This document shows, in pieces, positions 7,371 through 57,597 of a stretch of 64,000 bases of DNA. The notes under the pieces were generated by a model. That model did no database searches and had not been told where the DNA came from. It saw only the letters and a program-made list of their open reading frames with translations. Source of the DNA: Candidatus Rokuibacteriota bacterium (GTDB lineage: Bacteria > Methylomirabilota > Methylomirabilia > Rokubacteriales > CSP1-6); contig JAHFDN010000012.1 in NCBI GenBank assembly GCA_023248995.1, forward strand, positions 1 to 64,000, read 5' to 3'. Each line of letters begins with the position of its first letter. Within the stretch, counting starts at the first letter, position 1. Both the position numbers and the translations under genes were made by a program.

Positions 7371-8684
7371 GTGACGCGACTCGAGGCACTCCTCTCTGCC
7401 GGGCTCTTCCTCGGCGTGGGTCTCGCCCTCGGCTGCGCCGGGACGGAGCGGCCGAGCACGGCGGGGCTCCCCCCGACCCCGTGGGCGTCCCGGGCCCTCC
7501 CCGAGGCCCAGGGGGAGATCAAGACCTCGCCCGACGGCCGGAAGATGCAGGTTCGCTACCGGGGGTGGACCACCGAGGACTTCGGCCAGTTTCGCACGTA
7601 TGCCTACGACGACCCGCGACCGGCTCCGGCGGTGAGCCGGCTCTCCATGCCCCAGGTCAAGGGCGATCCCAGGGAGGGGCGGAAGCTCTTCCTGTCCCGC
7701 GCCAAGGGGCCGTGCACCGGCTGCCATCTGATTCCCGGAGATGATGTCTGGCCGGCCGGCAACGTCGGGCCGGATCTCTCGACCTTCGGCGATCGGAACC
7801 TCCCCGACGACTACGTGTTCACCCAGGTCTACGACTCGCGGAATTTCTTCCCGCACACCACGATGCCGCCGTGGGGGACGACGGGAGCTCTCAAGCCCGA
7901 GGAGATCGTTCACATCGTGGCATACCTGCAGACCTTGAAGGGACCGCTGTCGCCCGAGAAGGACCCGAACCGGAACCCGGACACGCGGGCCAAGCCGGTC
8001 GGCTTCGGCGATAACCTGGATCCGACCAACAACCCGGGGATCGTCCTGGCCGAAGGGGCCATGAGCCTCTGGAACAAGAGGGGACCGGCGGGAAAGGCGT
8101 GCGGCGACTGCCACGCCGGCGGCCCGGCGAAGGCCATGAAGGGCGTGGCGACGCGCTACCCGAACTACGTGAAGGCGTTCCAGCGCGTGATGAGCATCGA
8201 GGACTTTCTCACCGTGCACGCGCCGGGGACGACGGGCCTGCCCATGCTGGCCGAAAGTGATGAGAACCTCAGCACGACGATGCTGATCAAGATGCAGTCG
8301 AACGGCATGCCGGTCCAGGTGGACCTCGTGAGCCCGGAGGCCCGGGCGGCATTCGAGCGCGGCCGGGCCAGTTTCTGGAAGAGAGTGGGGCAGCGGGACC
8401 ACGCCTGCGCCGACTGCCACACCAAGGGAGCCGGACGGGGCGCCGACAAGTTCCTGGGCGGCCGGCTGCTCGCTGACGTGGACGCCGGGCTCACCAAGCA
8501 TTTTCCCCTGTGGCGGACCAGCGTGGGCGCCGTCTGGGACATGCGCAAGCGCATGCAGTGGTGCATGACGCCGCTGGGGATGAACATGCTGCCGGCCGAC
8601 GCGGTGGAGTACGCCGAGCTGGAGCTTTTTCTCACCTCGTTCGACAACGGAAAGCCGATGAGCGTCCCCGGCATTCGACATTAG
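7371..8684 (+). CDS. SoxX-SoxA fusion, triheme c-type cytochrome of thiosulfate oxidation
   Basis: 437 aa from GTG 7371. The track start at 7257 lies inside soxZ; the GTG has AAGG upstream and starts a hydrophobic leader ending in ALGC, a plausible though imperfect lipobox. Residues about 90-200 match SoxX: heme motif CTGCH at about 115, a GNVGPDLSTFGDR segment and a Met ligand candidate in TMPPWG. Residues about 230-437 match SoxA: heme motifs CGDCH (about 244) and CADCH (about 346), then FPLWR, and the cysteine of QWCMTP (about 398) corresponding to the SoxA heme-ligand/persulfide Cys. SoxXA couples thiosulfate to the SoxYZ cysteine in the periplasm. Normally SoxX and SoxA are separate genes; here they are covalently joined and possibly lipid-anchored. 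Confidence 0.9.
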   Translation: MTRLEALLSAGLFLGVGLALGCAGTERPSTAGLPPTPWASRALPEAQGEIKTSPDGRKMQVRYRGWTTEDFGQFRTYAYDDPRPAPAVSRLSMPQVKGDPREGRKLFLSRAKGPCTGCHLIPGDDVWPAGNVGPDLSTFGDRNLPDDYVFTQVYDSRNFFPHTTMPPWGTTGALKPEEIVHIVAYLQTLKGPLSPEKDPNRNPDTRAKPVGFGDNLDPTNNPGIVLAEGAMSLWNKRGPAGKACGDCHAGGPAKAMKGVATRYPNYVKAFQRVMSIEDFLTVHAPGTTGLPMLAESDENLSTTMLIKMQSNGMPVQVDLVSPEARAAFERGRASFWKRVGQRDHACADCHTKGAGRGADKFLGGRLLADVDAGLTKHFPLWRTSVGAVWDMRKRMQWCMTPLGMNMLPADAVEYAELELFLTSFDNGKPMSVPGIRH

Positions 8685-8697
8685 CCTCCTCCCGGAC

Positions 8698-10386
8698 ATG
8701 GAGGTGACGCGGCGGGATTTTCTGAAGCTTATTTCCATCGGCGGCGGCCTGGCAGCGCAAAGCCCGGACGCGCTGGCCACCCTCCTCGGCCCCGAGCGGC
8801 TCCTCGAGTTCCAGGCTCTCGGCAACGTGACGCTCCTGCACCTGACCGACCTGCACGCGACGCTTCTCCCCGTCTACTACCGCGAACCCGACACGCTGCT
8901 GGGGATCGGGCCCGAAGCGGGGAAGCCGCCGTACCTGAGCGGCGAGGCCTTTCTCCGCGCCTACGGCCTGGCGCGCGGCTCCGCGGAGGCGTACGCGTTC
9001 ACCCACGTGGACTTCCCGGCGCTGGCAGCCCGGTACGGCAAGATGGGCGGCTACGCGCACCTGGCCACGCTCGTGAAGCGAATCCGCGAGGAGCGGGCGG
9101 GCAGGACGCTCCTCCTGGACGGCGGCGACACCCTTCAGGGGTCGGCCACCGCCCTCTGGAGCCGCGGGGAGGACATGATCCGGGCGGCCAACCAGCTCGG
9201 CGTGGACGTGCTCGCGCCCCACTGGGAGTTCATCTACGGGCTCGACCGCGTGAAGGAGCTCTTCGGCGACCGGGAGCGCCGCGGGCTGTTCAGGGGCGAT
9301 TTCGTCGCCCACAACGTCTCGGAGGTCACGTGGGGCGATCCGGTCTTTCATCCCTACGCGATCAGGGAAGTCGGCGGCGTCAAGGTCGGCGTCATCGGCC
9401 AGGCGTTTCCGTACGTTCCGGTGTCTCACCCGCGGCGCTTCGTTCCCGACCTCACGTTCGGCATCCGAGAAGAGCAGGTCCAGCGGCTGATCAACGAGCT
9501 TCGGGAAGGGAAGAAGGCGGACCTGGTGGTCCTCCTGAGCCACAACGGGATCGCGGTGGACCTCAAGCTCGCCGCGCGGGTCCGCGGCCTCGACGTCATC
9601 CTGGGCGGCCATACCCACGACGCCCTGCCCGAGCCGATCCTCGTCGGCAAGACCCTCGTCATCAACTCGGGCGCCCACGGGAAGTTCCTGAGCCGGCTGG
9701 ACCTCGATGTGCAGGGGCGGCAGGTCGCCGGCTATCGCTACAAGCTCCTCCCGGTCCTCTCCCGCGACATCCCGGAAGACCCGGACATGGCGCGCCTGAT
9801 TGCCCAGATCCGGAGACCGCACGCGACCGAGCTGTCCGAGACGCTCGCGGTCTCGGAGACGCTCCTCTATCGGCGCGGAAACTTCAACGGCACCTTTGAC
9901 GAGGTGATCCTGGACGCTCTCCTCAAGCGGGCCGACGCCGAGGTGGCCTTCTCGCCGGGCTTCCGCTGGGGGATCACCATCGTGCCGGGCCAGGCCATCA
10001 TGCTGGAGGACGTCTACTCGCACACCGCGCTCACCTATCCGAACACGTGGGTGCGGGAGCTGACGGGGGCGGAGATCCACCGCCTCATGGAGGACGTGGC
10101 CGACAACCTCTTCAACAGGGATCCGTACTACCGCCAGGGCGGGGACATGGTGCGGGTGGGCGGGCTCACCTACGCGATCGACATCCGCAAAGACGTGGGG
10201 CGGCGGATCACCGACATCCGCGTCGGAGGCCGCCCCCTCGATCCGTCCCGTCGCTACAAGGCGACGGGCTGGGCCAGCCTCGGGGAGGCGGACGGCCCGC
10301 CGGCCTACGAGGTCGTGGCCCAACACTTGAGGTCCGTCAAGCGGGTCAGGCTCGATCCGCGCCCGCGCGTCCGGGTGCTCGGGTGA
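8698..10386 (+). CDS. soxB: SoxB, dimanganese sulfate thiohydrolase
   Basis: 562 aa with a clear Tat signal at the N terminus (TRRDFLKLISIGGG). The 5'-nucleotidase/metallophosphatase fold is shown by its metal-binding blocks in order: LTDLHA, DGGDTLQG, AHNV, LLSHNG and GGHTHD. The C-terminal domain contains the usual FRWG segment. SoxB hydrolyses the terminal sulfone from SoxY-bound thiosulfate to release sulfate. It follows the soxXA fusion by 13 bases and its stop overlaps the next start (GTGA), consistent with one operon. No soxC or soxD appears in the window. Confidence 0.95.
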   Translation: MEVTRRDFLKLISIGGGLAAQSPDALATLLGPERLLEFQALGNVTLLHLTDLHATLLPVYYREPDTLLGIGPEAGKPPYLSGEAFLRAYGLARGSAEAYAFTHVDFPALAARYGKMGGYAHLATLVKRIREERAGRTLLLDGGDTLQGSATALWSRGEDMIRAANQLGVDVLAPHWEFIYGLDRVKELFGDRERRGLFRGDFVAHNVSEVTWGDPVFHPYAIREVGGVKVGVIGQAFPYVPVSHPRRFVPDLTFGIREEQVQRLINELREGKKADLVVLLSHNGIAVDLKLAARVRGLDVILGGHTHDALPEPILVGKTLVINSGAHGKFLSRLDLDVQGRQVAGYRYKLLPVLSRDIPEDPDMARLIAQIRRPHATELSETLAVSETLLYRRGNFNGTFDEVILDALLKRADAEVAFSPGFRWGITIVPGQAIMLEDVYSHTALTYPNTWVRELTGAEIHRLMEDVADNLFNRDPYYRQGGDMVRVGGLTYAIDIRKDVGRRITDIRVGGRPLDPSRRYKATGWASLGEADGPPAYEVVAQHLRSVKRVRLDPRPRVRVLG

Positions 10387-44717: not shown

Positions 44718-45970
44718 GGCTCAGGGTGGCCGTGCTCAGCGTTCACACCTGCCCGCTGGCCTCCTTAGGCGGCAAGGAGACGGGAGGGATGAACGTGTAC
44801 GTGCGCGAGGTCGCGCGCGCCCTCGGCCGGATGGGCGTCCACGTGGATGTCTTCACCCGCTCCCAGAATCCCGCGATCCCCCGCGTGGTCCCCATGGGAC
44901 CCAGTTGTCGCGTCGTCCACCTCCCCGCCGGGCCGGAGGCCCCGATGCCGCGCGAGGAGGTGCACGCCTACCTGCCCGAGTTCGCCGCTCACGTAGAGGC
45001 TTTCAGACAGCGGGAGGGTCTGGCGTATGCGCTCGTTCACGCCCACTACTGGCTTTCGGGCGTCGCGGGGCTCGGCCTCTCCGCCCGGTGGGGGGTCCCG
45101 CTCATCCAGATGTTTCACACGCTGGGGCGCCTCAAGAACCGGGTGGCCCGGTCGCCCGAGGAGCGGGAGCCTCCGCTCCGCGTCACCGAGGAAGAGCGGA
45201 TCGTGCACGGGGCCGACCGTCTCGTCGCGTCCAACGTCGTGGAGCGCGCCCACCTCGTCTGGTACTATCGTGCTCCTACCGACCGGATCCGCGTGAGCCC
45301 GTGCGGCGTGGACGTGGAGCTCTTCCGGCCGATGGACCAGCGGGAGGCCAAAGCGGCGCTCGGCCTGGCTCCGGTCCCGCTCGTGCTCTACGTGGGCCGG
45401 CTCCAGCCGATCAAGGGGCTCGAGACCCTGCTGGAAGCGGTGCCGCTCGTCCGGGCCCCGGGATCGGAGGCGCCGCTCCTCCTGGTGATCGGCGGTGACG
45501 CCGACGAGCCCGAAAACGGCCACCTGGCGTCCCTGCGCGAGCGCGTCGCGGCCCTCGGTCTCGAGGGCAGGGTACGGTTCCTGGGAGCCCAACCCCAGGA
45601 GCGTCTCAAGCTCTACTACGCCGCCGCGGAGATGACGGTGATGCCGTCCTACTACGAGTCGTTCGGGATGGTGGCGCTCGAGGCGATGGCCTGCGGCAAC
45701 CCCGTGATCGCCTCGCGCGTGGGCGGGCTCGCGACGACGATCCGGGATGGCGTCACGGGATATCTGGTGCCGGAAGGCGACGCGCGCGTCCTCGCAGACC
45801 GGATGTCGGCGATCCTGGAGGACGAGGGCCTTCGCCGCCGGCTCGGCGCCGCGGCCGTCCGTCGGGCCCGGCGGTACCGGTGGCCGTGCGTCGCCGAGGC
45901 CGTCTGCCGCCTCTATGCCGAGCATGTCCCCGACGCGCGCGGGCACCTCCATCGGGCCCGCTGTCGCTGA
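44714..45970 (+). CDS. MshA-like GT4 glycosyltransferase
   Basis: 418 aa. VAVLSVHTCPLASLGGKETGGMNVYV, HAHYWLSGVAG and the donor-site PSYYESFGMVALEAMACGNPVIAS match MshA (mycothiol first step) and sucrose-phosphate-synthase-type enzymes. Together with the preceding acyltransferase it could build a glycosylated small molecule or polysaccharide, but no MshB/C/D partners are in view. It may equally be a generic inositol- or sugar-phosphate glycosyltransferase. Confidence 0.82.
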   Translation: MRLRVAVLSVHTCPLASLGGKETGGMNVYVREVARALGRMGVHVDVFTRSQNPAIPRVVPMGPSCRVVHLPAGPEAPMPREEVHAYLPEFAAHVEAFRQREGLAYALVHAHYWLSGVAGLGLSARWGVPLIQMFHTLGRLKNRVARSPEEREPPLRVTEEERIVHGADRLVASNVVERAHLVWYYRAPTDRIRVSPCGVDVELFRPMDQREAKAALGLAPVPLVLYVGRLQPIKGLETLLEAVPLVRAPGSEAPLLLVIGGDADEPENGHLASLRERVAALGLEGRVRFLGAQPQERLKLYYAAAEMTVMPSYYESFGMVALEAMACGNPVIASRVGGLATTIRDGVTGYLVPEGDARVLADRMSAILEDEGLRRRLGAAAVRRARRYRWPCVAEAVCRLYAEHVPDARGHLHRARCR

Positions 45971-45996
45971 AGCGCGGGAGGGAGAGGACACATCGC

Positions 45997-47178
45997 ATGC
46001 GGACCCCAGCGCGTCGCGCCCTCGTCTTCCTGATCGACGGCTTCGATCCCGACTACGTGCGCGCCACGGATTTGCCGAATCTGATGGGCCTGGCGCGCGC
46101 GGGGGCGTTCACGCTCGACGGGCAAGGCGTGATGCCGAGTCTCACCAACGTCAACCACGCCTCGCTCCTCACGGGGACATTCCCGGATCGCCATGGCCTC
46201 TGCGCAAACTTCTACTACGACCGGCCCACGGGTAAAGAGGTGTTCCTGGACCAGGCGGCGTTCGTGGAGCAGCCGTTCCTCTTCGAGCGGGCCAAGGCGG
46301 CGGGATGGTCCACGGCGCTGGCCACGGCCAAGGAGAAGCTCACCCGCCTGCTCCGGCGGGACCTGGATCTCTGCGCGGACATGTCGAGCGCGCCGCCGGA
46401 GATCGCCAAGGTCGTCGGCCCCCCACCGGACATCTTCACGCTGGAGATCAACCTGTGGGTGCTGCGCATGGCCCGGGAAGTCGCGCTCCGCCACGCGCCG
46501 CGCTTTCTCTACGTCGCCACCACCGATTACCCGGAGCACAAGCTGCCGCCCCAGAGCCCGGAGATGAAGGCCCACCTCCGTGAGATGGACGCCCTGATTG
46601 GCGACATCGTCCGGTGCTACGACCTGTCGGATTCGGTGGTGGTGCTCACCGCCGATCACGGGATGAACGCCAAGACGCGCTCGGTGAGCCCGGTGCGGCT
46701 CCTGGCCGACGCGGGCATCCGGGCCCGCGGCGTTCCCCTCATCAAGGATGGGCTCTTCGCCCACCACCGGGACCTGGGGGGATCGCTCTATCTCTTCCTC
46801 GAGCGTCCCGAGGGTGTTCGAGACGCCGTGCGCGTCCTCCGGGGCGCGCCGGGGCTCGATGTGGTGATCCCGCAGAGCGAGGCCGGACGCTACAACCTGC
46901 CGACCGAGCGGGTGGGGGACCTCGTCTGCTTCGGCCAGCGGGAGTGGGCGCTCGGGATCTGGGCCGAGGGCCCCGCCGTGCGCGACGAGGCCGGGCTCCG
47001 CTCTCACGGTTCGGTGCACGAGCAGACCATCCCCATGCTCCTCGCCGGTTGCGGGGTCAAGGGCGGCGCGCGGATCGAGGGGGGGCGGATCGTGGACCTG
47101 GCGCCGACCCTCTGCCGTCTCCTCGGCTTCACGGACGGGGCCTTCCAGGGACGCGTCCTGGAAGAAGTGCTGGTGTAG
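45997..47178 (+). CDS. Alkaline-phosphatase-superfamily hydrolase, phosphonoacetate-hydrolase-like
   Basis: 393 aa from ATG 45997; the track start 45880 lies inside the glycosyltransferase. VFLIDGFDPDYV, MPSLTNVNHASLLTG (nucleophile Thr/metal site), TTDYPEHKLPP and LTADHGMNAKTR are the metal-site blocks of the nucleotide pyrophosphatase/phosphonoacetate hydrolase group. The wording of these blocks is close to PhnA phosphonoacetate hydrolase as I remember it. Soluble and without a signal peptide, so cytoplasmic. The dipeptide-type importer genes start 3 bases later. Phosphonate specificity is a hypothesis. Confidence 0.78.
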   Translation: MRTPARRALVFLIDGFDPDYVRATDLPNLMGLARAGAFTLDGQGVMPSLTNVNHASLLTGTFPDRHGLCANFYYDRPTGKEVFLDQAAFVEQPFLFERAKAAGWSTALATAKEKLTRLLRRDLDLCADMSSAPPEIAKVVGPPPDIFTLEINLWVLRMAREVALRHAPRFLYVATTDYPEHKLPPQSPEMKAHLREMDALIGDIVRCYDLSDSVVVLTADHGMNAKTRSVSPVRLLADAGIRARGVPLIKDGLFAHHRDLGGSLYLFLERPEGVRDAVRVLRGAPGLDVVIPQSEAGRYNLPTERVGDLVCFGQREWALGIWAEGPAVRDEAGLRSHGSVHEQTIPMLLAGCGVKGGARIEGGRIVDLAPTLCRLLGFTDGAFQGRVLEEVLV

Positions 47179-47181
47179 ACG

Positions 47182-48174
47182 ATGGGGATGCTGCTGGAGG
47201 TCCGGGGTCTTCGCACGCACTTCTTCACGGGCGCCGGTGTGATCCGCGCGGTGGACGACGTCTCTTACGACGTCGGGGTCGGGGAGACCGTGGCGCTCGT
47301 CGGCGAGTCGGGGTGCGGCAAGACCGTTAGCGCGCTCAGCATCATGCGCCTCATCGCGGCCCCCGCCGGCCGTATCGTAGGCGGCGAGATCCTCTTCAAG
47401 GGCCAGGATCTCCTGGCACTGGAGGAGGAGGGAATACGGCGGATCCGAGGGCGGGAGATCGCGATGGTCTTCCAGGAGCCGATGACCTCGCTCAACCCGG
47501 TCCTCTCGATTGGCCGTCAGCTCACCGAGCCGCTGGAGATCCACCTGGGGCTCCCGCCGGCCGAGGCCCTCGCCCGCGCGACGGAGCTGCTCGCGCTCGT
47601 CGGCATCCCCGATCCGGCGCGCCGCCTCGACCAGTACCCGCACCAGTTCAGCGGCGGCATGCGCCAGCGGATCATGATTGCCATGGCGCTCTCCTGCAAC
47701 CCGTCGCTGATCCTGGCCGACGAACCCACGACGGCGCTGGACGTCACGATCCAGGCCCAGATCCTCGAACTCATGAAGGACCTTTCCCGGCGCCTCCGGG
47801 TCGCGATGCTGATCATCACGCATAACCTGGGCGTGGTGGCCCGGTACGCCGACCGAGTCAACGTGATGTACGCGGGAAAGATCATCGAGCGGGGCACCGC
47901 CGGGGAGATCTACGCCACCCCCCGACACCCCTATACCCTCGGGCTCCTGCGCTCGGTGCCGCGTCTGGACGAGCCGCGCAAGTCCAAGCTGAGTCCCATC
48001 GACGGGCAGCCACCGGATCTCGTGCGCTTGCCGCCAGGATGCGCCTTTGCCCCCCGCTGCCGGTACGCGGTTCCCCGCTGCGCGGAGGAGGTCCCGCCGC
48101 TCCGGCCGGTCAGCCACGGCCACGAGTCGGCCTGCTGGGTGGCCGAGGACGTGGGAAGCGAGGTGCGCGTATGA
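47182..48174 (+). CDS. Dipeptide/oligopeptide-type ABC transporter ATP-binding protein (DppD type)
   Basis: 330 aa. Walker [30 protein letters not shown], signature FSGGMRQR, Walker [14 protein letters not shown]. The C-terminal oligopeptide-ABC domain has [14 protein letters not shown], a Cys cluster found in many DppD/OppD proteins that can hold Fe-S. Overlaps the DppF-type gene by 4 bases. Confidence 0.92.
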
Positions 48175-49196
48175 GCGCTGCGGTCCTGGCGCCGGCCGGA
48201 GTCCCGCGCGCGGTGCCGTCGGGACAGGTCATCCTCGAGGTGCGGAACCTCGTCAAGCACTTCCCCGTCCGCGGACGCGGGCTCTTTGCGGGGAGCGCCG
48301 GAGTGATCCGGGCCGTGGATGGCGTGAGCTTTTCAATTCTCGAGGGGGAGACGCTCGGGCTCGTGGGGGAATCGGGATGCGGGAAGACCACGACCGGCCG
48401 GTGCATTCTCCAGCTCGAGCACCCCACCGCCGGGGAGGTCATCTTCGAGGGAGAGGAACTGACCAGGCTCGCCCCCGCCGAGCTCCGTCGGGTCCGGCGG
48501 AAAATGCAGGTTATCTTTCAGGATCCCTACAGCTCGCTCAACCCGCGCATGACGGTCGGCCAGATCATCGCCGAGCCCCTGGCGGTGCACGGGATCGTCG
48601 CCGACCGGGGCGCGCGGCAGGCCCGCGTGCACGACCTGCTCTCCCGGGTGGGGATCCCGCCCTCGCTGGCTGACCGCTACCCGCACGAGATGTCCGGCGG
48701 CCAGCGCCAGCGCGTCGGGATCGCCCGCGCGATCGCCTTAGAGCCCTCGCTCATCATCTGCGACGAGCCGGTCTCGGCCCTGGACGTTTCGATCCAGGCG
48801 CAGATCATCAACCTTCTCGAGGAGCTCCAGGCGGAGTTCCACCTCACTTATCTCTTCGTGGCTCACGACCTCTCCGTCGTCCGGCACATTTCGGACCGGG
48901 TGGCGGTGATGTACCTCGGGAAGATCGTGGAGATCGCCGATCGGCAGACGCTCTACCAGGATCCCCTCCATCCGTACACCAAAGCCCTCCTCGCCGCGGT
49001 GCCCATCCCGGATCCGGCCGTCGAGGCCAGCCGCGAGCGCGTGGTGCTCAAGGGAGAGGTCCCCAGCGCGCTCAATCCGCCCTCGGGCTGCGTCTTCCAC
49101 CCTCGGTGCCCCATCGCGATCGAGGAGTGCAAGGGGGTCGTGCCCGATCTGCGGGAGGTCAGGTCGGGGCATCGTGCCGCCTGTATCCGGGTCTAG
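48171..49196 (+). CDS. Dipeptide/oligopeptide-type ABC transporter ATP-binding protein (DppF type)
   Basis: 341 aa from ATG 48171; the track's earlier start lies inside the preceding gene. Walker [31 protein letters not shown], signature MSGGQRQR, Walker [15 protein letters not shown]-terminal [14 protein letters not shown]. Pairs with the DppD-type ATPase. The matching binding protein and permeases lie at 52070-55572, beyond a two-component system. Confidence 0.92.
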
Positions 49197-49221
49197 TGCC
49201 GTGCCGGGAGCCTGGAGCCCG

Positions 49222-49250
49222 TTGCTCTCGGAGAGGCTACGGAGTAAGCT
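49222..49250 (+). promoter_or_regulatory. Candidate promoter with leaderless start for the histidine kinase/NtrC operon
   Basis: TTGCTC, 17 bases, TAAGCT. Expected transcription start coincides with the GTG at 49257. No ribosome site precedes that GTG. Confidence 0.35.
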
Positions 49251-49256
49251 CAGGGC

Positions 49257-50555
49257 GTGAGCACCCTGGCGCGTCGGTCGCTCCACACCGCCGCCCGCGC
49301 GCTCGAGCGGGACGAGCGGGTGTTCGCCGTGCTGCTCACCGTCATCATGGTCGGAGGCTTGGCCACCCTCGGGCTCGCCCCCCTCAGGCCGCGGTACCGG
49401 ATCGATCTCTTTCCCCTCGTCGTCAAATTCGCCGCCTACAAGCTCGGCGTCTTCGCGCTGGTGACCGTCAATCCGCGAGCCACGCGCGCGGTGCTCCTCG
49501 GAGCGCTCACCGTGGACCTGCTGCTCATCTTCGTGCTGCTCTGGTTGACGGGCGGCGGCGACAGCCTCTTCTACCTGCTGTTCTTTCCGCTGGTCGCCGT
49601 CAACGCGTATTACTTCGGCCCGTGGGTGGGGCTGGGCGCAGCACTCGTCGCGGGCGGGCTCTATGCCGCGGCGGCGGCGCTGGCCCCGCCCTGGGTCGGG
49701 TGGACGCCCGTCACGATCCTGTCGGCGCTCGTGGGTCTGCCCGCCTTCGCGCTGGGGCATGTGGCCGAGCGGGAGCGGCGGGCGCGTGGCGAGGTCGAGC
49801 GTCTCAACGTCGAGCTCAAGCAGACGCTGGGGCGCCTGGAGGCCACACAGGAGGACCTCATCGTCGCCGAGCGGATGGCGACCGTCGGCCGTCTGTCGCT
49901 CAAGGTGGCCCACGAGGTCAGAAACCCCATCAGCGCCATCGAGCTCAATGCGGAAATGCTCGAGGACATCGTCCGCAATCACCCGGGTGCCGACATGGAG
50001 GAGGCAGGGGGCCTGGTGGGAGCCATCCGGGAGCAGGTGAACGCGCTGGACGCGCTGACCGAGGAGTACCTGGCGTTCGCGCGGTTTCCCCGGCCGAACT
50101 TCGAGGAGGATGCGGTCAACGAGATGGTGCAGGGGGTCGCGGAGTTCGTCCGGCCGGTGGCCACGAGGCAGGGCATCACCGTGAAGGTCGTGTGCGATGC
50201 GGCGGTTCCGACGATGGTCATTGACCGGACGCTGCTGCGCCAGGCCGTGCTCAACCTGGTCAAGAACGGGCTCGAGTCCCTCTCGCGCGGCGGGTTCCTG
50301 ACCGTCAGCACGTGCCGGCGGCCCGGGATCGTCGAGATCGCTGTGGGCGACAGCGGTCCCGGGATTCCGCCGGACATCGCTCTGCGGCTGTTCGAGCCGT
50401 TCTTCACCACCAAACCGCAGGGCACGGGCCTCGGCCTGTCCATCGCCCGCCAGATCGTGGAGGAGCACGGGGGCGAGCTCCGGTGGAGCAGCACGCCGGG
50501 CTCCGGGGCCACCTTCACGATCGGCCTCCCGCTCAAGGACGACGAGCATGGCTGA
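49257..50555 (+). CDS. Membrane sensor histidine kinase, NtrB-like cognate of an NtrC-type regulator
   Basis: 432 aa. The N-terminal region has about five to six hydrophobic segments (residues 20-175). A short coiled-coil linker leads to a HisKA domain with the phospho-accepting His in VAHEVRNPISA (about 218), followed by a HATPase domain (N-box LVKNGLESL, G1 GDSGPGIP, G2 GTGLGLSIA). No periplasmic sensing domain is obvious, so it may sense through the membrane. It overlaps the response-regulator gene by 8 bases. Confidence 0.93.
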   Translation: MSTLARRSLHTAARALERDERVFAVLLTVIMVGGLATLGLAPLRPRYRIDLFPLVVKFAAYKLGVFALVTVNPRATRAVLLGALTVDLLLIFVLLWLTGGGDSLFYLLFFPLVAVNAYYFGPWVGLGAALVAGGLYAAAAALAPPWVGWTPVTILSALVGLPAFALGHVAERERRARGEVERLNVELKQTLGRLEATQEDLIVAERMATVGRLSLKVAHEVRNPISAIELNAEMLEDIVRNHPGADMEEAGGLVGAIREQVNALDALTEEYLAFARFPRPNFEEDAVNEMVQGVAEFVRPVATRQGITVKVVCDAAVPTMVIDRTLLRQAVLNLVKNGLESLSRGGFLTVSTCRRPGIVEIAVGDSGPGIPPDIALRLFEPFFTTKPQGTGLGLSIARQIVEEHGGELRWSSTPGSGATFTIGLPLKDDEHG

Positions 50556-51960
50556 GCCGCCCACGCTCCTGGTGGCCGACGACGATCCGGCGGTGAGGGA
50601 GAGCCTCGAGCGCACCCTGAAGCGCGAGGGGTACCGGGTCGTGGTGGCCTCGGACGGCCAGGCGGGCCTCGAGCGCCTCAAGGCGGGGGGCGTGGACCTC
50701 GTGCTGGCGGATCTCAAGATGCCAGGGCTCAACGGGCTCGAGCTTCTCCGCGCGGCCAAGACGGTGGCCCCCGACGTGGACGTGATCATGCTGACGGCCT
50801 TCGGCACGGTGGAGGAAGCCGTCCAGGCCATGAAGGACGGGGCCTACGACTTTCTCACCAAGCCCTTCCAGCGCGCGCAGCTCATCCGCCTGATCCGGAA
50901 GGCGCTGGAGCGGCGGGCGCTCATCGAGGAGAACCGCGCGCTCCAGCAACGGCTCGAGGACCTGCTCCGGCAGGGCGCGGTCATCGGCACCAGCGCGGCG
51001 TTCCAGCGCATGATGGTGCTCATCGAGCAGGTCGCGTCGAGCTCGGCCACGGTCCTGATCCAGGGGGAGAGCGGGACGGGGAAGGAACTCGCGGCCCGTG
51101 CCATCCACGAGCGCTCGCCGCGCCGCACCCGCCCGTTCGTCGCCGTCAACTGCGCGGCCCTGCCGGAGACGCTGCTCGAGTCCGAACTGTTCGGCTACGA
51201 AAGGGGAGCGTTCACCGGGGCCACCGGGAGGAAGGAAGGCCGGTTCGAGCTGGCCGATGGGGGCACCCTGTTCCTCGACGAGGTGGCCGACCTGTCCCCG
51301 GTCACGCAGCCGAAGATCCTCCGCGTGCTGCAGGAGGGCGAGTTCGAGCGTGTCGGAGGGACCAAGACCATCCGGGTGGACGTGCGCATCGTGTCGGCCA
51401 CCAACCAGGATCTGGGGCGCCTCGTGCGGGAGAAACGGTTCCGCGAGGATCTCTACTACCGCCTCAACGTGATCACGGTCCCGGTTCCGCCGCTCCGGCA
51501 GCGGCAGGAAGACATCCCGATGCTCGCGCACCATTTCCTGCGCGTGTACGCGGCGAAGAACAACCGGCGGCTGGAGGGCTTCAGCGAGGACGCCTTGAGA
51601 CGGCTCGAGGCCTACGCCTGGCCGGGGAACGTCCGCGAGCTGGAGAACGCCGTGGAACGCGCCGTGGTCCTCGCGCGGGAGTCCGTGATCGAGGTGGCGG
51701 ACCTTCCCGGGAGCGTCGTGGGGACCGCGCCGCGGGTGGAAGGGCTGGTCAGTATCCCGGTCGGCACGCCGCTCGCCGAGGTCGAGCAGCGGCTGCTGGA
51801 GGAGACGTTGCGGCATACCAAGGGGAACAAGACCCTCGCCGCCAAGCTGCTCGGCATCGACCCCAAGACGGTGTTCCGGAAGCTCAAGCAGGGCGGGGGC
51901 GAGGACGCCGTCGGCGCCGCGCCCGAGGCGTCGGGGGAAGGCGCCGACGCGGACCAGTGA
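50548..51960 (+). CDS. Sigma-54-dependent response regulator (NtrC family)
   Basis: 470 aa in three domains: receiver with phospho-acceptor Asp55 (LVLADLKMPG), AAA+ core with Walker A GESGTGKE (about 172), the sigma-54-contact GAFTGA (about 222) and FLDEVADL, and a C-terminal Fis-type helix-turn-helix (LLEETLRHTKGNKTLAAKLLGIDPKTVF). It remodels sigma-54 RNA polymerase when phosphorylated by the adjacent kinase. Candidate targets are the sigma-54 promoter at 56096 and possibly that at 63218. Confidence 0.95.
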   Translation: MAEPPTLLVADDDPAVRESLERTLKREGYRVVVASDGQAGLERLKAGGVDLVLADLKMPGLNGLELLRAAKTVAPDVDVIMLTAFGTVEEAVQAMKDGAYDFLTKPFQRAQLIRLIRKALERRALIEENRALQQRLEDLLRQGAVIGTSAAFQRMMVLIEQVASSSATVLIQGESGTGKELAARAIHERSPRRTRPFVAVNCAALPETLLESELFGYERGAFTGATGRKEGRFELADGGTLFLDEVADLSPVTQPKILRVLQEGEFERVGGTKTIRVDVRIVSATNQDLGRLVREKRFREDLYYRLNVITVPVPPLRQRQEDIPMLAHHFLRVYAAKNNRRLEGFSEDALRRLEAYAWPGNVRELENAVERAVVLARESVIEVADLPGSVVGTAPRVEGLVSIPVGTPLAEVEQRLLEETLRHTKGNKTLAAKLLGIDPKTVFRKLKQGGGEDAVGAAPEASGEGADADQ

Positions 51961-51981
51961 CTGTCCGGACGCACTTTGTCC

Positions 51982-52011
51982 TTGACAGGTTTTTCGGCCC
52001 CGGGCTACCCT
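51982..52011 (+). promoter_or_regulatory. Sigma-70 promoter for the peptide-binding protein operon
   Basis: TTGACA, 18 bases, TACCCT (or 17 bases, CTACCC), followed by GGTTTTT in the spacer. Located about 60 bases before the ATG at 52070. Shares the TTGACAGG start seen at 55587, 61040 and 36761(-). Confidence 0.5.
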
Positions 52012-52069
52012 ACCCCCGGCCCGCGAGGGGCCTGTTTTCTGTCGAATGAGACATCCAAGGAGGTGCTCC

Positions 52070-53689
52070 ATGGCTTACCTGCTGAGTCGGCTCCGTGGCG
52101 TGGGGGCTCTCGCCTTCCTGCCCGTGCTCATCGTGGGCGTCGTCCTGCCCTCGCCGGTGATGGGGCAGGACAAACCCCGCTACGGCGGCGAGCTGATCTT
52201 CCCTGTGCCCTCCGAGCCGCCCTCTTACGACGGGCACCGGGAGGAGACGTTCGGCCTGATTCACCCGATCGCGCCCTTCTACAACACGCTGCTCCGGGTG
52301 GACCCGAGGGATCCCTCCGGCACCAAACCGATTGGGGACCTTGCCGAAAGCTGGACGGTCGCCAGGGATGGTCTCACGTACACCTTCAAGCTTCACAAGG
52401 GAGTCAAGTTCCACGACGGGAGCGAGATGACGTCGAAGGACGTCAAAGCGTCTTACGACAAGATCATCTTCCCGCCTCCGGGCGTCGGAAGCTCCCGGAA
52501 AGGGCAGTACGAGGTGGTGGAAGCCCTCGAGGCGCCCGATCCCTCCACGGTGCGGTTCCACCTCAAGTGGCCGACCGCCTCGTTTCTCGCGTCCCTCGCT
52601 TCGCCCTGGAACTTCATTTACAAGGCGGACATCCTGGTCAAGGACATCCATTGGTACGAGACCCACGTGATGGGGACGGGTCCCTTCACCTTCGTCGAGC
52701 ACGTCAAGGGCTCTCACCTGGTCGGGAAGAAGAATCCGACCTACTGGGACAAGGGGAAGCCCTATCTCGACGGCTTCCGCGCGATCTTCATCTCGTCGTC
52801 GTCGGCTCAGGTGGCCGCGATCCGGGGCGAGCGGGCGCACATCCAGTTCCGGGGCTTCGGCCCCGCCGATCGCAACAGTCTGAAGGCGTCGCTCGGCGAC
52901 AAGATCACCGTCCAGGAGAGCCCCTGGGACTGCATCCTCCTGGGGGCCATCAACCACAATAAGAAACCGTTCGACGACAAGCGGGTCCGGCGGGCCCTCA
53001 CGCTGGCGCTGGACCGATACGAGGGCTCCAAGGCGCTCTCCAAGATCGCCATCGTGAAGGAAGTGGCAGGGGTCCAGGTTCCGGGCACGCCATATGCGAC
53101 CCCTCCAGAGGAGCTGGCCAAGCTCGCCGGCTACGGGAAGGACATCAATGCCGCGCGCGACGAGGCCAGGTACCTCCTGAAGGAAGCCGGCGCCGAGAAG
53201 CTTTCGTTCACCTTCAAGAACCGTGGGATCCCCATGCCCTACGAGCCGCTCGCCATCTGGATGATCGACCAGTGGCGGCGGGTGGGCCTCAACGTCAAAC
53301 AGGAGGTCATCGAGGCGGCCGCCTACTACTCCGTCCTCCGGAAGGGTGACTTCGAGGTCGCCATGGACTTCCAGTGCGGCTACATCGTCGAGCCCGACCT
53401 GGACATCTACAAGTTCATCTCGACCGACAAGAACCCGGCCAACTACGGGGCCTACACTGACCGGGTGCTGGATGATCTCTATGTAAAGCAGTCCCGGGCC
53501 ACGGATTACGAGGAGCGGAAGAAGTACATCCGACAGTTCGAGAAGCGGGTCCTCGACGCGGAGGCCCATTATCTGATGACGCTGCAGTGGCATCGGATCA
53601 TCCCGCACTCGAGCAAGGTGAAGGGGTGGCAGATCACGCCGAGCCACTACCTGAATAACCAGCTCGACGCCGTCTGGCTGAGCGAGTAG
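52070..53689 (+). CDS. Peptide/nickel-family ABC transporter substrate-binding protein
   Basis: 539 aa from ATG 52070, preceded by AAGGAGGT; the track's ATG-like start 24 bases earlier lacks a ribosome site. A signal peptide is present (LAFLPVLIVGVVLPSPVMGQ). SBP family 5 (DppA/OppA) marks are the GDLAESWTVARDGLTYTFKLHKGVKFHDG block and the later VRRALTLALDR. It binds a peptide or similar solute for the importer of genes 47182-49196 and 53714-55572. Confidence 0.92.
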   Translation: MAYLLSRLRGVGALAFLPVLIVGVVLPSPVMGQDKPRYGGELIFPVPSEPPSYDGHREETFGLIHPIAPFYNTLLRVDPRDPSGTKPIGDLAESWTVARDGLTYTFKLHKGVKFHDGSEMTSKDVKASYDKIIFPPPGVGSSRKGQYEVVEALEAPDPSTVRFHLKWPTASFLASLASPWNFIYKADILVKDIHWYETHVMGTGPFTFVEHVKGSHLVGKKNPTYWDKGKPYLDGFRAIFISSSSAQVAAIRGERAHIQFRGFGPADRNSLKASLGDKITVQESPWDCILLGAINHNKKPFDDKRVRRALTLALDRYEGSKALSKIAIVKEVAGVQVPGTPYATPPEELAKLAGYGKDINAARDEARYLLKEAGAEKLSFTFKNRGIPMPYEPLAIWMIDQWRRVGLNVKQEVIEAAAYYSVLRKGDFEVAMDFQCGYIVEPDLDIYKFISTDKNPANYGAYTDRVLDDLYVKQSRATDYEERKKYIRQFEKRVLDAEAHYLMTLQWHRIIPHSSKVKGWQITPSHYLNNQLDAVWLSE

Positions 53690-53713
53690 TCGGGCCGGTC
53701 CCCCTCTTCTCTC

Positions 53714-54670
53714 ATGGGGAAGTACATCCTGAAACGATTCCTCCTCATGATCCCCACCCTCCTGGGGGTGGCGGTCCTTGTCTTCGTGCTCCTCCGCGTC
53801 GTGCCCGGCGATGTTGTCGAGCTGCGGTTCATGAGCGGGGAGGGGCAGTTCGCGGACCCGCAGATGCTGGCGATGGAGCGCGCCAAGGTGGGCCTCGACA
53901 AGCCGATGTGGAAACAGTTCCTCGACTGGATGTGGGGGATCGTCAGGCTGGATCTGGGCGTCTCCATGTGGACGGGAGCCCCCATCACGGAGGAGATCAA
54001 GCTCCGATTCGCGCTCTCCCTTCAACTGGCGATCATGGCGACGGTCGTGGCGACGCTGCTCGCGATCCCCCTCGGGATCCTCGCCGCCCTCAAGCAGGAC
54101 ACATGGGTGGATTACACCGTCCGCGTCTTCTCCATCGCCGGGCTGGCGATGCCGTCGTTCTGGCTCGGCATCCTGATGATTCTCGGCTTCCTCGTCATCT
54201 TCAAGTGGCTCCCGCCGATGGTGTACACGCCTCTGTGGGTGAACCCCTGGCAGAACCTGGCCCAGCTCATCTGGCCGGCGCTGGCGGTGGGCTACCGCTA
54301 TTCTGCGGTGGCGACCCGGATGACCCGCTCGGCCATGCTCGAGGTGCTCCGCGAGGACTACATCCGTACGGCCCGGGCGAAGGGGCTCTGGACGAAGCTG
54401 ATTCTCACGCGTCACGCGCTGAAGAACGCCATGCTGCCGGTGCTGACGGTGATCGCGCTCGAGTTCGCCTTTCTCCTGGGCGGGCTCGTCGTCACCGAGC
54501 AGGTCTTCAACTTGAACGGCCTCGGCATGCTCTTCGTCCAGGCGATCTCCCACCGCGACTACACCCTGACCCAGTCGCTGGTGCTGCTGGTGGCTTTCGT
54601 GTTCATCTTCGTCAACTTTCTGATGGATCTGCTCTACGGGCGGCTGGATCCCCGGATCCGATACCGGTAA
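53714..54670 (+). CDS. Dipeptide-type ABC transporter permease (DppB type)
   Basis: 318 aa. Starts MGKYILKRFLLMIPTLLGVAVLVFVLLRVVPGD, the standard DppB/OppB first helix. Six helices, and the EAA loop region YIRTARAKGLWTKLILTRHALKNAMLPV. Overlaps the DppC-type gene by one base (TAATG). Confidence 0.93.
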   Translation: MGKYILKRFLLMIPTLLGVAVLVFVLLRVVPGDVVELRFMSGEGQFADPQMLAMERAKVGLDKPMWKQFLDWMWGIVRLDLGVSMWTGAPITEEIKLRFALSLQLAIMATVVATLLAIPLGILAALKQDTWVDYTVRVFSIAGLAMPSFWLGILMILGFLVIFKWLPPMVYTPLWVNPWQNLAQLIWPALAVGYRYSAVATRMTRSAMLEVLREDYIRTARAKGLWTKLILTRHALKNAMLPVLTVIALEFAFLLGGLVVTEQVFNLNGLGMLFVQAISHRDYTLTQSLVLLVAFVFIFVNFLMDLLYGRLDPRIRYR

Positions 54671-55572
54671 TGGCGATCAACGTTCCGGCCGAGACCATCG
54701 CGGAGGTTTCGCTCGCCCCGGCCCGTCGAGCATGGATCGCCGCGGCCATCAAGTTCACGCGCCAGCGCCCCATCGGGGCGCTCGGCGCCGCGATCATCCT
54801 CGTCATGGCGGCGGTGGCGTCTCTCGCGGGCGTTCTGGCCCCCTACGATCCCCTGGCGACGGATTACGGCGGCATGCTGGCGCCCCCGAGCGCGACCCAC
54901 TGGCTCGGCACCGACGCGTTCGGCCGGGACGTGCTCTCCCGGATCGTCTACGGGTCGCGCACCGCGCTGTTGGTCGGGTTCGGCGCCTCCGTTCTCGGGG
55001 CGACGCTCGGCGTCTTCGTGGGCGTGGCGAGCGCCTACTTCGGAGGACGCGTGGACCTCCTCGTTCAGCGCGTCATGGACATCTTCCTCTCGTTCCCGCT
55101 GATCGTCCTGGCCCTGGCGGTCGTGGTCATCCTGGGGACCGGCGTGTTGAACGTCACCCTGGCCATCATGGTGCCGATGATTCCGCGGTGCGCGCTGGTG
55201 GTGCGCTCGAGCGCCCTGGCCATCCGCGAAATGCCGTACGTGGAGGCGGCCCGCGCGGCCGGGTTCGGCCACGCCAGGATCATCTTCCGGCACATGCTGC
55301 CGAACGTGATGGCTCCCTACCTGATCATGCTGACGGCGTTCCTCGGCCAGGCCATCCTCCTCGAAGCCTCGCTCTCGTTCCTGGGTCTCGGGGTGCAGGA
55401 GCCCACGGCGGCCTGGGGACTCATGCTCCGGGGGGCGGCGGTCGAGTTCGCCGAGGCCGCGCCGTGGATGGCGCTCTTCCCGGGCCTGGCCATCAGCCTG
55501 GGCGTGTTCGGCTTCAGCCTCTTCGGCGATTCCCTCCGCGACGCGCTGGACCCCAAGCTCCGCACGCTGTGA
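54670..55572 (+). CDS. Dipeptide-type ABC transporter permease (DppC type)
   Basis: 300 aa from ATG 54670; the track's frame from 53908 is read-through. An N-terminal OppC helix precedes the PYDPLATDYGGMLAPPSATHWLGTDAFGRDVLSR segment, a DppC hallmark. The EAA loop is YVEAARAAGFGHARIIFRHMLPNVMAP. Completes the importer. Confidence 0.92.
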   Translation: MAINVPAETIAEVSLAPARRAWIAAAIKFTRQRPIGALGAAIILVMAAVASLAGVLAPYDPLATDYGGMLAPPSATHWLGTDAFGRDVLSRIVYGSRTALLVGFGASVLGATLGVFVGVASAYFGGRVDLLVQRVMDIFLSFPLIVLALAVVVILGTGVLNVTLAIMVPMIPRCALVVRSSALAIREMPYVEAARAAGFGHARIIFRHMLPNVMAPYLIMLTAFLGQAILLEASLSFLGLGVQEPTAAWGLMLRGAAVEFAEAAPWMALFPGLAISLGVFGFSLFGDSLRDALDPKLRTL

Positions 55573-55672: not shown

Positions 55673-55939
<267 letters not shown>

Positions 55940-55965: not shown

Positions 55966-55995
55966 CGGGGCCCCCATTCGGGGCCCCGATTTTTT
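55966..55995 (+). terminator. Intrinsic terminator after the ferredoxin gene
   Basis: CGGGGCCCC, loop CATTC, GGGGCCCCG, then A and six T. A 9-bp perfect GC stem with a T-tract. Its T-run abuts the first upstream activator site at 55994. Confidence 0.92.
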
Positions 55996-56013
55996 GCACA
56001 CCGCTCCGTGCAG
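55994..56013 (+). promoter_or_regulatory. Upstream activator site 1 (NtrC-like inverted repeat)
   Basis: TTGCACACCGCTCCGTGCAG. It contains TGCAC-N8-GTGCA, close to the enteric NtrC consensus TGCACC-N5-GGTGCA. 17 of 20 bases match site 2, whose start is exactly 32 bp (about three helical turns) downstream. Confidence 0.55.
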
Positions 56014-56025
56014 CGGCAGGCGCCG

Positions 56026-56045
56026 TTGCACATCGCGCCATGCAG
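56026..56045 (+). promoter_or_regulatory. Upstream activator site 2 (NtrC-like inverted repeat)
   Basis: TTGCACATCGCGCCATGCAG, second copy of the element at 55994 with TGCA half-sites. Centre about 87 bases before the predicted sigma-54 start point, a usual enhancer distance. Confidence 0.55.
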
Positions 56046-56095
56046 GGCCGAGCCTCGGTCTTGTTCCAACTCCTTGAAATCTCGCCCTCGGCCGC

Positions 56096-56112
56096 CTGGC
56101 ACGCTGCTTGCC
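56096..56112 (+). promoter_or_regulatory. Sigma-54 (RpoN) promoter
   Basis: CTGGCACGCTGCTTGCC: TGGCACG-N4-TTGC matches the consensus -24/-12 core exactly, with GG-N10-GC spacing. Predicted start about 56122. The TTG that the ORF track uses as a start codon (56108) is the -12 box. Confidence 0.8.
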
Positions 56113-56125
56113 CTTCACACCGGGC

Positions 56126-56410
56126 GTGGAGCAGGGGAGCGTTCTCGGATTCCGCGGAGCGGTGGAGGAGTTCAAGCGCCGCCTCATCGAAACAGCGCTC
56201 CGTCAAGCCGGCTGGAACCGGACCCACGCGGCCCGGAGTCTCGGGCTCCAGCGGACGTATCTCCTGCGCCTGATCCGTGACCTGGGCGTGCCGGTGCGGC
56301 CGGCGGGCCGCCCCTTCCAGCCGGGTGGGCCGCTCACCCCCGCCCGTCCGCCGCGCCCGCCCGCTCCCACGGCCCCCGTGAACGGCCCGCGCCCCGCCGA
56401 AAAGCGTTGA
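56126..56410 (+). CDS. Small free-standing Fis-type DNA-binding protein under sigma-54 control
   Basis: About 94 aa from GTG 56126, or 82 aa from GTG 56162; the track's TTG 56108 lies inside the sigma-54 promoter and cannot be translated from it. VEEFKRRLIETALRQAGWNRTHAARSLGLQRTYLLRLIRDLG is a Fis-type helix-turn-helix, the same fold as the C-terminal domain of NtrC-family activators. The tail is Pro-rich (PARPPRPPAPTAP) and probably disordered. There is no receiver or AAA+ domain. It may bind the same or similar sites as the nearby NtrC-type regulator, or act as a nucleoid-type factor. The start codon is uncertain because no good ribosome site precedes either GTG. Confidence 0.7.
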   Translation: MEQGSVLGFRGAVEEFKRRLIETALRQAGWNRTHAARSLGLQRTYLLRLIRDLGVPVRPAGRPFQPGGPLTPARPPRPPAPTAPVNGPRPAEKR

Positions 56411-56437
56411 CACCTTGCGAACTCCCGGAGTGAAATA
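56408..56437 (+). promoter_or_regulatory. Sigma-70 promoter for the thiolase-led operon
   Basis: TTGACA, 18 bases, TGAAAT. Begins at the stop codon of the Fis-type gene and lies about 35 bases before the TTG start at 56470. Confidence 0.5.
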
Positions 56438-56469
56438 GAGCAGATTTCAATCCCTTCGGGAGTCGACCG

Positions 56470-57597
56470 TTGCCGGATGTCTGGATCGCCGGGGCGGGGA
56501 TGACCCGCTTCGGCAAGCGCGAAGAAAATCTTCCGGATCTCGTGGCCGAGGCCGCCCGCGCGGCGCTCGCCGCCGCTCGGCTCGAGGCGCCGGATCTGGT
56601 TGTCGTCGCCGCCATGAACCCGGAAGAGTTCATCGGCGAGGGCAACTTCGCGTCTCAAATCGCCACCCACCTGGGGTTCGCCCACGTGCCGGCCCTCCGG
56701 GTCGAGACCGCCACCTCCTCGGGCGCGGCCGCGGTCTACACGGCCTTCGCCGTCGTCGCGGCGGGCCTCTCCCGATCGGTGCTCGTCGTCGGGGGCGAAA
56801 AGATGACGCATCTCCCCACGCCCCGCGTGTCCGAGATCATCGGGCGCTCCATCGATCGCGACGAGCGCGCTTATGGCGCGACGATGCCGGCGCTGGCGGG
56901 CCTGATTACCCGGGTCCTTTTGGCCAAGACGGGCGTCACGCTCAAGGAAATCTCGCAGGTCTCGGTGAAAAATCACGCCCACGGGGCGCTGAATCCGTAC
57001 GCCCACTTCCAGGAACCGGTGACGCTGGCGGCCGTGATGGAGAGCCGGATCGTCGCCGATCCCCTCAGGCTCTATCACTGCTGCCCGATCTCCGACGGCG
57101 CCGCGGCGCTCGTCTTGAGCGCCGATCGCACCCCGGTCCGGATTGCCGGGATCGGCCACGGGACCGATACGCTGGCCGTCCGATACCGCGACAGTCTCGT
57201 GAGCTTCCGGGCGACCCAGGACGCGGCGCGCGCGGCGTACCGGATGGCGGGCTTCGGGCCCGAGCGGGTGGAGGTGGCCGAGGTCCACGACGCCTTCAGC
57301 CCGTTTGAGCTCATCGCGCTCGAAGACCTGGGGCTGGTTCCGGCCGGAAAGGCCGGCGCCGCCACGCTCAGGGGCGAGACGGCGCTCGAGGGGCGCCTAC
57401 CGGTCAACCCCTCCGGAGGGCTCAAGGCGCGCGGCCATCCCCTGGCCGCGACGGGCATCGCCCAGATCGTGGAGCTGGTCTGGCAGCTCCTCGGCCAGGC
57501 CCATGGCCGGCAGGTGGCGGCGCGGGTGGGGCTTGCCCACTCGATCGGCGGCCTGGCGACCAACAACTGGGTCACCTTGCTGGAGCGGGTCTCGTGA
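56470..57597 (+). CDS. Thiolase-superfamily protein lacking the nucleophilic Cys
   Basis: 375 aa from TTG 56470 (GGGAG 7 bases upstream). Fold marks are MPDVWIAGAGMTRFGKR, EVHDAFSPFELIALEDLGL and NPSGGLKARGHPLAATG with the catalytic His. At the position of the nucleophile (EAACxSG in thiolases and SCP2-type proteins) it reads ETATSSG, and the second catalytic Cys near the C terminus is also absent. It is therefore unlikely to run ordinary thiolysis; an acyl-binding/lipid-transfer or unconventional acyl-transfer role is possible. It overlaps a DUF35 OB-fold gene, its usual partner. Confidence 0.82.
   Translation: MPDVWIAGAGMTRFGKREENLPDLVAEAARAALAAARLEAPDLVVVAAMNPEEFIGEGNFASQIATHLGFAHVPALRVETATSSGAAAVYTAFAVVAAGLSRSVLVVGGEKMTHLPTPRVSEIIGRSIDRDERAYGATMPALAGLITRVLLAKTGVTLKEISQVSVKNHAHGALNPYAHFQEPVTLAAVMESRIVADPLRLYHCCPISDGAAALVLSADRTPVRIAGIGHGTDTLAVRYRDSLVSFRATQDAARAAYRMAGFGPERVEVAEVHDAFSPFELIALEDLGLVPAGKAGAATLRGETALEGRLPVNPSGGLKARGHPLAATGIAQIVELVWQLLGQAHGRQVAARVGLAHSIGGLATNNWVTLLERVS

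Follow-up and report, generated by a model that had tools for sequence, protein, structure and literature searches.

A conserved sigma-54 enhancer-promoter (55995-56111), with a phased pair of putative activator sites, a stand-alone Fis-type HTH gene (hereafter the orphan) expressed from a predicted near-leaderless mRNA and a second target elsewhere in the genome, is the best explanation of the DNA examined here, and we would give it a probability of about 85%. The window, that is, the whole stretch of DNA that was analysed, comprises 64 kb (contig C41) of a 2.34-Mb genome from the uncultured lineage Candidatus Rokuibacteriota (Rokubacteria). The region passes every sequence test available for a sigma-54 enhancer-promoter; within this explanation we infer the binding of the sites, the identity of the activator, the transcript start, the leaderless translation and the role of the orphan. 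The features discussed below are listed in Table 1.

Table 1. Features of the control region and of its surroundings (window coordinates; site centres are given relative to the predicted transcript start)
Feature	Positions	Strand	Remarks
Histidine kinase, probable partner of 50548	49257..50555	+	HisKA and HATPase_c; overlaps the 50548 gene
REC-AAA+(GAFTGA)-HTH response regulator (50548), candidate activator	50548..51960	+	PF00158 (5e-73), PF00072, PF02954
Ferredoxin gene	55673..55939	+	Upstream of the control region, which it adjoins in nearly all orphan loci; Fer4 domains
Hairpin and T run GGGGCCCC	55966..55995	+	Probable terminator of the ferredoxin gene, read from sequence; abuts the distal site
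Distal putative enhancer palindrome TGCACACCGCTCCGTGCA	55995..56012		Centre about -119.5; exact TGCAC-N8-GTGCA, 18 bp
Proximal putative enhancer palindrome TGCACATCGCGCCATGCA	56027..56044		Centre about -87.5; TGCAC-N8-GTGCA with one mismatch
Possible IHF-type bend site CAACTCCTTGAAA	56067..56079		Tentative; 8 of 9 specified consensus bases
Sigma-54 (-24/-12) promoter TGGCACGCTGCTTGC	56097..56111	+	Exact consensus TGGCACN5TTGC
Predicted transcript start	56123	+	12th nucleotide after TTGC, placed by the usual sigma-54 spacing
Target gene, 94-aa stand-alone Fis-type HTH protein (orphan)	56126..56410	+	GTG start; stop 56408-56410
Thiolase-like gene, downstream	56470..57597	+	Thiolase domains; conserved synteny

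A phased and conserved site pair upstream of two sigma-54 promoters

The first-pass annotation had described a near-perfect RpoN promoter preceded by two 20-mers, identical at 17 of 20 positions, 32 bp apart and about 87 and 119 bases before the start. All of this stands: the match to the consensus at 56097-56111 is exact, the 20-mers occupy 55994-56013 and 56026-56045, and with +1 at 56123 their centres fall at -87.5 and -119.5. The start itself, put near 56122 in that annotation, is better placed at about 56123, shortly ahead of the GTG at 56126. The reading given there as a sigma-54 control region is largely borne out. The region, which it had called complete-looking, is as described in its sequence, but the target gene, its near-leaderless start and the second target had all been missed. 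The NtrC-like character ascribed to the repeats holds for the half-sites and the layout but not for the width of the palindrome, which is 18 bp (N8) and not 17 bp (N7). RpoN is encoded in the genome (PF04552, 2.9e-60).

The 19-nt consensus of the elements has five matches with at most three mismatches in the window, the two elements being the only exact ones, compared with a mean of 0.53 matches in shuffled windows and no shuffle out of 100 that reaches five. Taken alone at one mismatch, the promoter 15-mer is found twice in the window against 0.9 expected, i.e. within chance. The full architecture, made up of a site pair and a promoter, occurs in none of 200 dinucleotide-shuffled windows; with its conservation and its second occurrence in the genome, this agrees with the earlier judgement that chance is unlikely.

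In the whole 2.34-Mb genome, exact TGCAC-N8-GTGCA is found at two places only, each time as one member of a tandem pair that an exact sigma-54 promoter follows. A genome-wide scan had been proposed in the first-pass annotation, with random positions of the motif as the outcome that would count against a regulatory role; it returned just these two exact places, in the same geometry. The second of them (C45:50877) has a one-mismatch partner 33 bp upstream, and 69 bp after its start comes an exact sigma-54 promoter. Nine of the 12 exact sigma-54 promoters of the genome were examined, and site pairs accompany these two alone of the nine. The promoter on C45 would drive two genes immediately behind atpC, one for a REC and one for an HD-GYP protein, and in many genomes this second target is again found behind atpC with its layout unchanged. 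A search for further members of the regulon gave extra pattern matches (G012:C1, G016:C140 and G010:C73) without a good site pair and without either target. We read the orphan HTH gene and the REC/HD-GYP operon as a two-target regulon with a common activator. As a separate observation, another exact sigma-54 promoter (G000:C42:14233, L012) is followed after about 20 nt by a gene that we call LpxC-like by sequence resemblance.

Retrieved by protein similarity alone, the orphan orthologues of relatives are preceded by the same control region, between the ferredoxin and thiolase genes. In a scan of GTDB genomes, likewise by protein similarity alone, which is a check and not an independent sample because many of these genomes overlap the first set, the sigma-54 promoter TGGCAYNNNNNTTGC is present at the same place with 0-1 mismatch in 40 of 43 loci. 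The two best sites lie 21-22 or 32-33 bp apart in 39 of these 40 promoter-bearing loci, so that the repeats, whose conservation in relatives had been named as a check in the first pass, are kept there as a phased pair. In nearly all relatives, 67-70 bp separate the start of the proximal site from the promoter 15-mer.

The spacing was also scored on 47 promoters of the family (32 of orphan genes and 15 of HD-GYP genes), the proximal site being kept near -70 and the distal site allowed to vary over 43 positions. The spacing between the two best sites is 21-22 or 32-35 bp in all 47, corresponding to two or three helical turns, compared with a mean of 9.9 and a maximum of 18 out of 47 at those spacings in shuffled upstream regions; some of the 47 promoters had been retrieved with patterns in which the proximal site is fixed, and no pattern constrained the distal site or the spacing. 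We interpret the pairs as phased, conserved upstream activator sites. The possible IHF-type site was recognized by the IHF consensus, and the genome has four matches to the HU/IHF family. Most orphan loci in the 32/33 class have a site of this type at -30 from the promoter; as a universal element it was rejected, because at the second target and in most loci of the 21-bp class it is weak or absent.

The orphan gene and its predicted near-leaderless mRNA

The orphan protein is conserved across the family and has a single HTH_8 domain (PF02954, E = 9e-9, 35.4 bits against a cut-off of 22, scored on the longer reading from 56108). An in-frame start codon lies 13-15 nt after TTGC in all 40 promoter-bearing loci of the GTDB scan and in nearly all relatives taken together, and the distance from the promoter to the HTH ranges from 29 to 264 nt between species. 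Since the first distance is fixed while the second varies, it appears to matter where the start codon stands with respect to the end of the transcript. A start codon so close to TTGC predicts a leaderless or nearly leaderless sigma-54 mRNA for the orphan gene, with a leader of zero or 2-5 nt; with +1 at the 12th nucleotide after TTGC, the start codon would stand at +3 to +5, which leaves no room for a Shine-Dalgarno sequence. The gap from promoter to start is 13-18 nt at the second target. At five other exact sigma-54 promoters of the genome, the first listed ORF begins 46-62 nt downstream, and at two others 20 and 15 nt downstream. A point against leaderless translation is that in E. coli leaderless mRNAs beginning with GTG are translated poorly (PMC3616915). 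The literature on leaderless mRNAs in connection with sigma-54 or RpoN was examined only in part, and leaderless sigma-54 genes may already have been described.

The family f4 (G050) carries, at the same ferredoxin-to-thiolase locus, a histidine kinase and a full-length REC-AAA+-HTH activator. Since the HTH of this activator is 60% identical to the orphan over 73 residues, the orphan probably represents a 'decapitated' activator of which the DNA-binding domain alone has survived; the reverse history, a fusion in f4, would be a less simple alternative. The orphans of the two-turn class (L061-L069 and other loci of the 21-bp class) have a short proline-arginine tail (AAPPPPPRRRR), which those of the three-turn class do not have. 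In two related genomes of another family, at L087:3969 (G057) and on the reverse strand of L089 (G064), an exact TGGCAC-N5-TTGC promoter comes after the gene of an activator whose HTH is of the orphan type. No long ORF is present in the stretch behind this promoter, which closes with a conserved hairpin (loop TACCCCCCGG) and may encode a sigma-54-dependent small RNA.

Two further observations concern the stretch at 56400-56470. A TTGACA box (56407-56412) and an inverted repeat (ACTCCCGGAGTGAAAT...ATTTCAATCCC..GGGAGT), just 5' of the thiolase gene, are overlapped by the end of the orphan gene. In close relatives, the orphan frame continues through this stretch (..KSVDTxRTPGVK), so that selection may act on this DNA as a promoter of the thiolase gene and not as protein.

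Candidate activators and alternative readings

The genome encodes sigma-54 activators in number (14 strong PF00158 matches). The best candidate for the activator of the site pair is the 50548 response regulator, towards which the balance of the comparisons tips slightly. It lies about 4 kb upstream of the orphan gene in the window, G006 and G039. Long orthologues, with about 70-90% identity, occur in nearly all of the 40 family genomes. The exceptions can be explained by contig ends: one of them, G020, has an 86%-identical fragment at such an end, and in G020, G027 and G015 the contig with the orphan starts no earlier than the expected position of 50548. Its presence in nearly all family genomes does not single it out, other activators being likewise widespread.

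The recognition helices of three of the 14 activators, all broadly conserved, were compared: 50548, an NtrC-like regulator on C51 and NtrX. In the three-turn class, the helix of 50548 is PKTVFRKLKQ, with PKTVYRKLKQ, PSTVYRRLKQ and close variants as alternatives; the two-turn class has PRTVSRKLER, VRTVARKLER or PTTVLRKLKR instead. The helices of C51 (NRNTLRKKL) and NtrX (ERSHLYRKLK) are the same in both. The two targets have the same spacing class in 11 of 11 genomes, and on the thiolase tree the class switched once, on a weakly supported branch; the concordance of the classes and the co-variation of the helix are not independent replicates, because both go back to this one evolutionary change, which the two loci share. 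The role of activator that the first-pass annotation suggested for this GAFTGA-type regulator is still one that we infer, but it has gained support from the near-universal occurrence of the gene and from the helix that changes with the site class. The 50548 gene and its kinase lie within a cluster of oligopeptide-type ABC transporter genes (45880-55572: ATPases, binding protein, permeases), adjoined by a type I phosphodiesterase-like gene; the cluster is a hint at the signal. Elsewhere (L075, G000:C48), two pilin-like ORFs (8443-8982 and 9760-10299) with identical N-terminal 70 residues flank a PilR-type activator ORF.

Alternatively, the control region could be real and answer to another regulator, most plausibly the NtrC-like protein of C51, or NtrX, or others, in which case the position of 50548 would be a coincidence. 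We regard this as a serious possibility, if on balance a doubtful one. The helix of C51 resembles classical NtrC helices, which read TGCAC half-sites; C51 is present in 32 of the 40 family genomes (NtrX in 33) and adjoins a PAS-type kinase gene; and 50548 and the orphan are on separate contigs in most genomes. Nevertheless, the helices of C51 and NtrX have not changed though the sequence and spacing of the sites have, the palindrome measures 18 bp against the 17 bp of enteric NtrC, and the glnA/amtB/PII locus on C17 has no exact site pair. In addition, C51 was not found in G008 and G024, nor NtrX in G017, G024 and G028, which are nearly complete and keep the promoter, absences that are weak evidence because the assemblies are drafts.

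It is improbable that the orphan itself occupies the palindromes as an autorepressor or architectural factor, the sites then not being enhancers. A Fis-type HTH belongs to the class that binds such palindromes, and the orphan gene always adjoins one pair. Yet a sigma-54 promoter requires an AAA+ activator and the sites stand at the enhancer position, the second target has its sites with no orphan HTH gene beside them, and the full-length activators of other families that have an orphan-type HTH show no TGCAC pairs nearby. The recognition helix of the orphan (LGLQRTYLLRL) is moreover invariant across the spacing classes, and an invariant helix beside changed sites weakens the case for its binding those same sites. 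Chance resemblance in G+C-rich DNA deserves next to no credit, since one-mismatch sigma-54-like 15-mers do arise in a 64-kb window but conservation in dozens of genomes, phasing and a second target speak against it.

If the region is an enhancer-promoter with 50548 as its activator, a phosphorylated dimeric protein of the NtrC superfamily, probably controlled by the kinase at 49257, would bind the two TGCAC-N8-GTGCA sites on one face of the helix, three turns apart, oligomerise and assemble its AAA+ ring. A DNA loop would bring it to the sigma-54 polymerase at 56097, which it would open; oligomerisation, looping and the contact with sigma-54 are established for the superfamily. Transcription from about 56123 would give the leaderless or near-leaderless mRNA of the 94-aa orphan, and the same activator would also drive the REC and HD-GYP operon behind atpC. 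At a guess, the orphan could act as feedback or as a competitor at related palindromes, damping or redirecting activation. A bolder proposal, which we hold tentatively and at a little under even odds, is that the two-target regulon co-evolved: the enhancer spacing of both unlinked targets would have shifted by one helical turn together with the activator helix, and the decapitated activator, made from a (near-)leaderless mRNA, would close a feedback loop.

The literature search found no paper joining Rokubacteria and sigma-54. The proposed circuit is a sequence-defined, enhancer-regulated one in an uncultured lineage, and its whole-turn spacings in dozens of genomes are natural variants that make helical phasing testable, with a one-turn difference between clades common to both targets. 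It suggests that sigma-54 promoters can couple to (near-)leaderless translation, and that an activator can lose the motor domain yet survive, under sigma-54 control, as a protein with nothing but its DNA-binding part.

Comparison with known systems

The control region resembles glnAp2 of the enteric glnALG operon in its paired upstream palindromes, TGCAC half-sites, sigma-54 promoter and presumed activation at a distance. The two strong sites of glnA are 32 bp, or three turns, apart. Unlike in glnAp2, a two-turn spacing occurs here in one clade, the sites are about 20 bp closer to the promoter, the targets are the orphan HTH gene and the REC/HD-GYP operon instead of nitrogen genes, and the palindrome is one base wider (N8 vs N7). 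The NtrC site of Salmonella is TGCACC(A/T)4TGGTGCA, 17 bp long with N7 (PMC4987338), and a review of the glnA enhancer places NtrC sites about 90 and 140 bp upstream (PMC7408454). In both pairs described here, the half-sites match TGCAC/GTGCA and the gap is N8, and neither target belongs to nitrogen assimilation. The system is not filed as an NtrC regulon because its palindrome is 18 bp and not 17, and because its targets are not nitrogen genes.

Like Fis and other stand-alone relatives of the NtrC C-terminal domain, the orphan is a single HTH_8 domain of the sort found at the ends of sigma-54 activators. Unlike the stand-alone Fis types, it most resembles in sequence the HTH of the full-length activator that a related family encodes at this locus, and its gene would itself be under a sigma-54 promoter. 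Its predicted mRNA is like the leaderless mRNAs mapped in Sinorhizobium meliloti and other bacteria (PMC3616915) in that the start codon would be at or adjoining the transcript start, with no room for a Shine-Dalgarno sequence. Unlike those mapped mRNAs, it is predicted here from a sigma-54 promoter, throughout a family, with a GTG start in the window and a possible leader of 2-5 nt.
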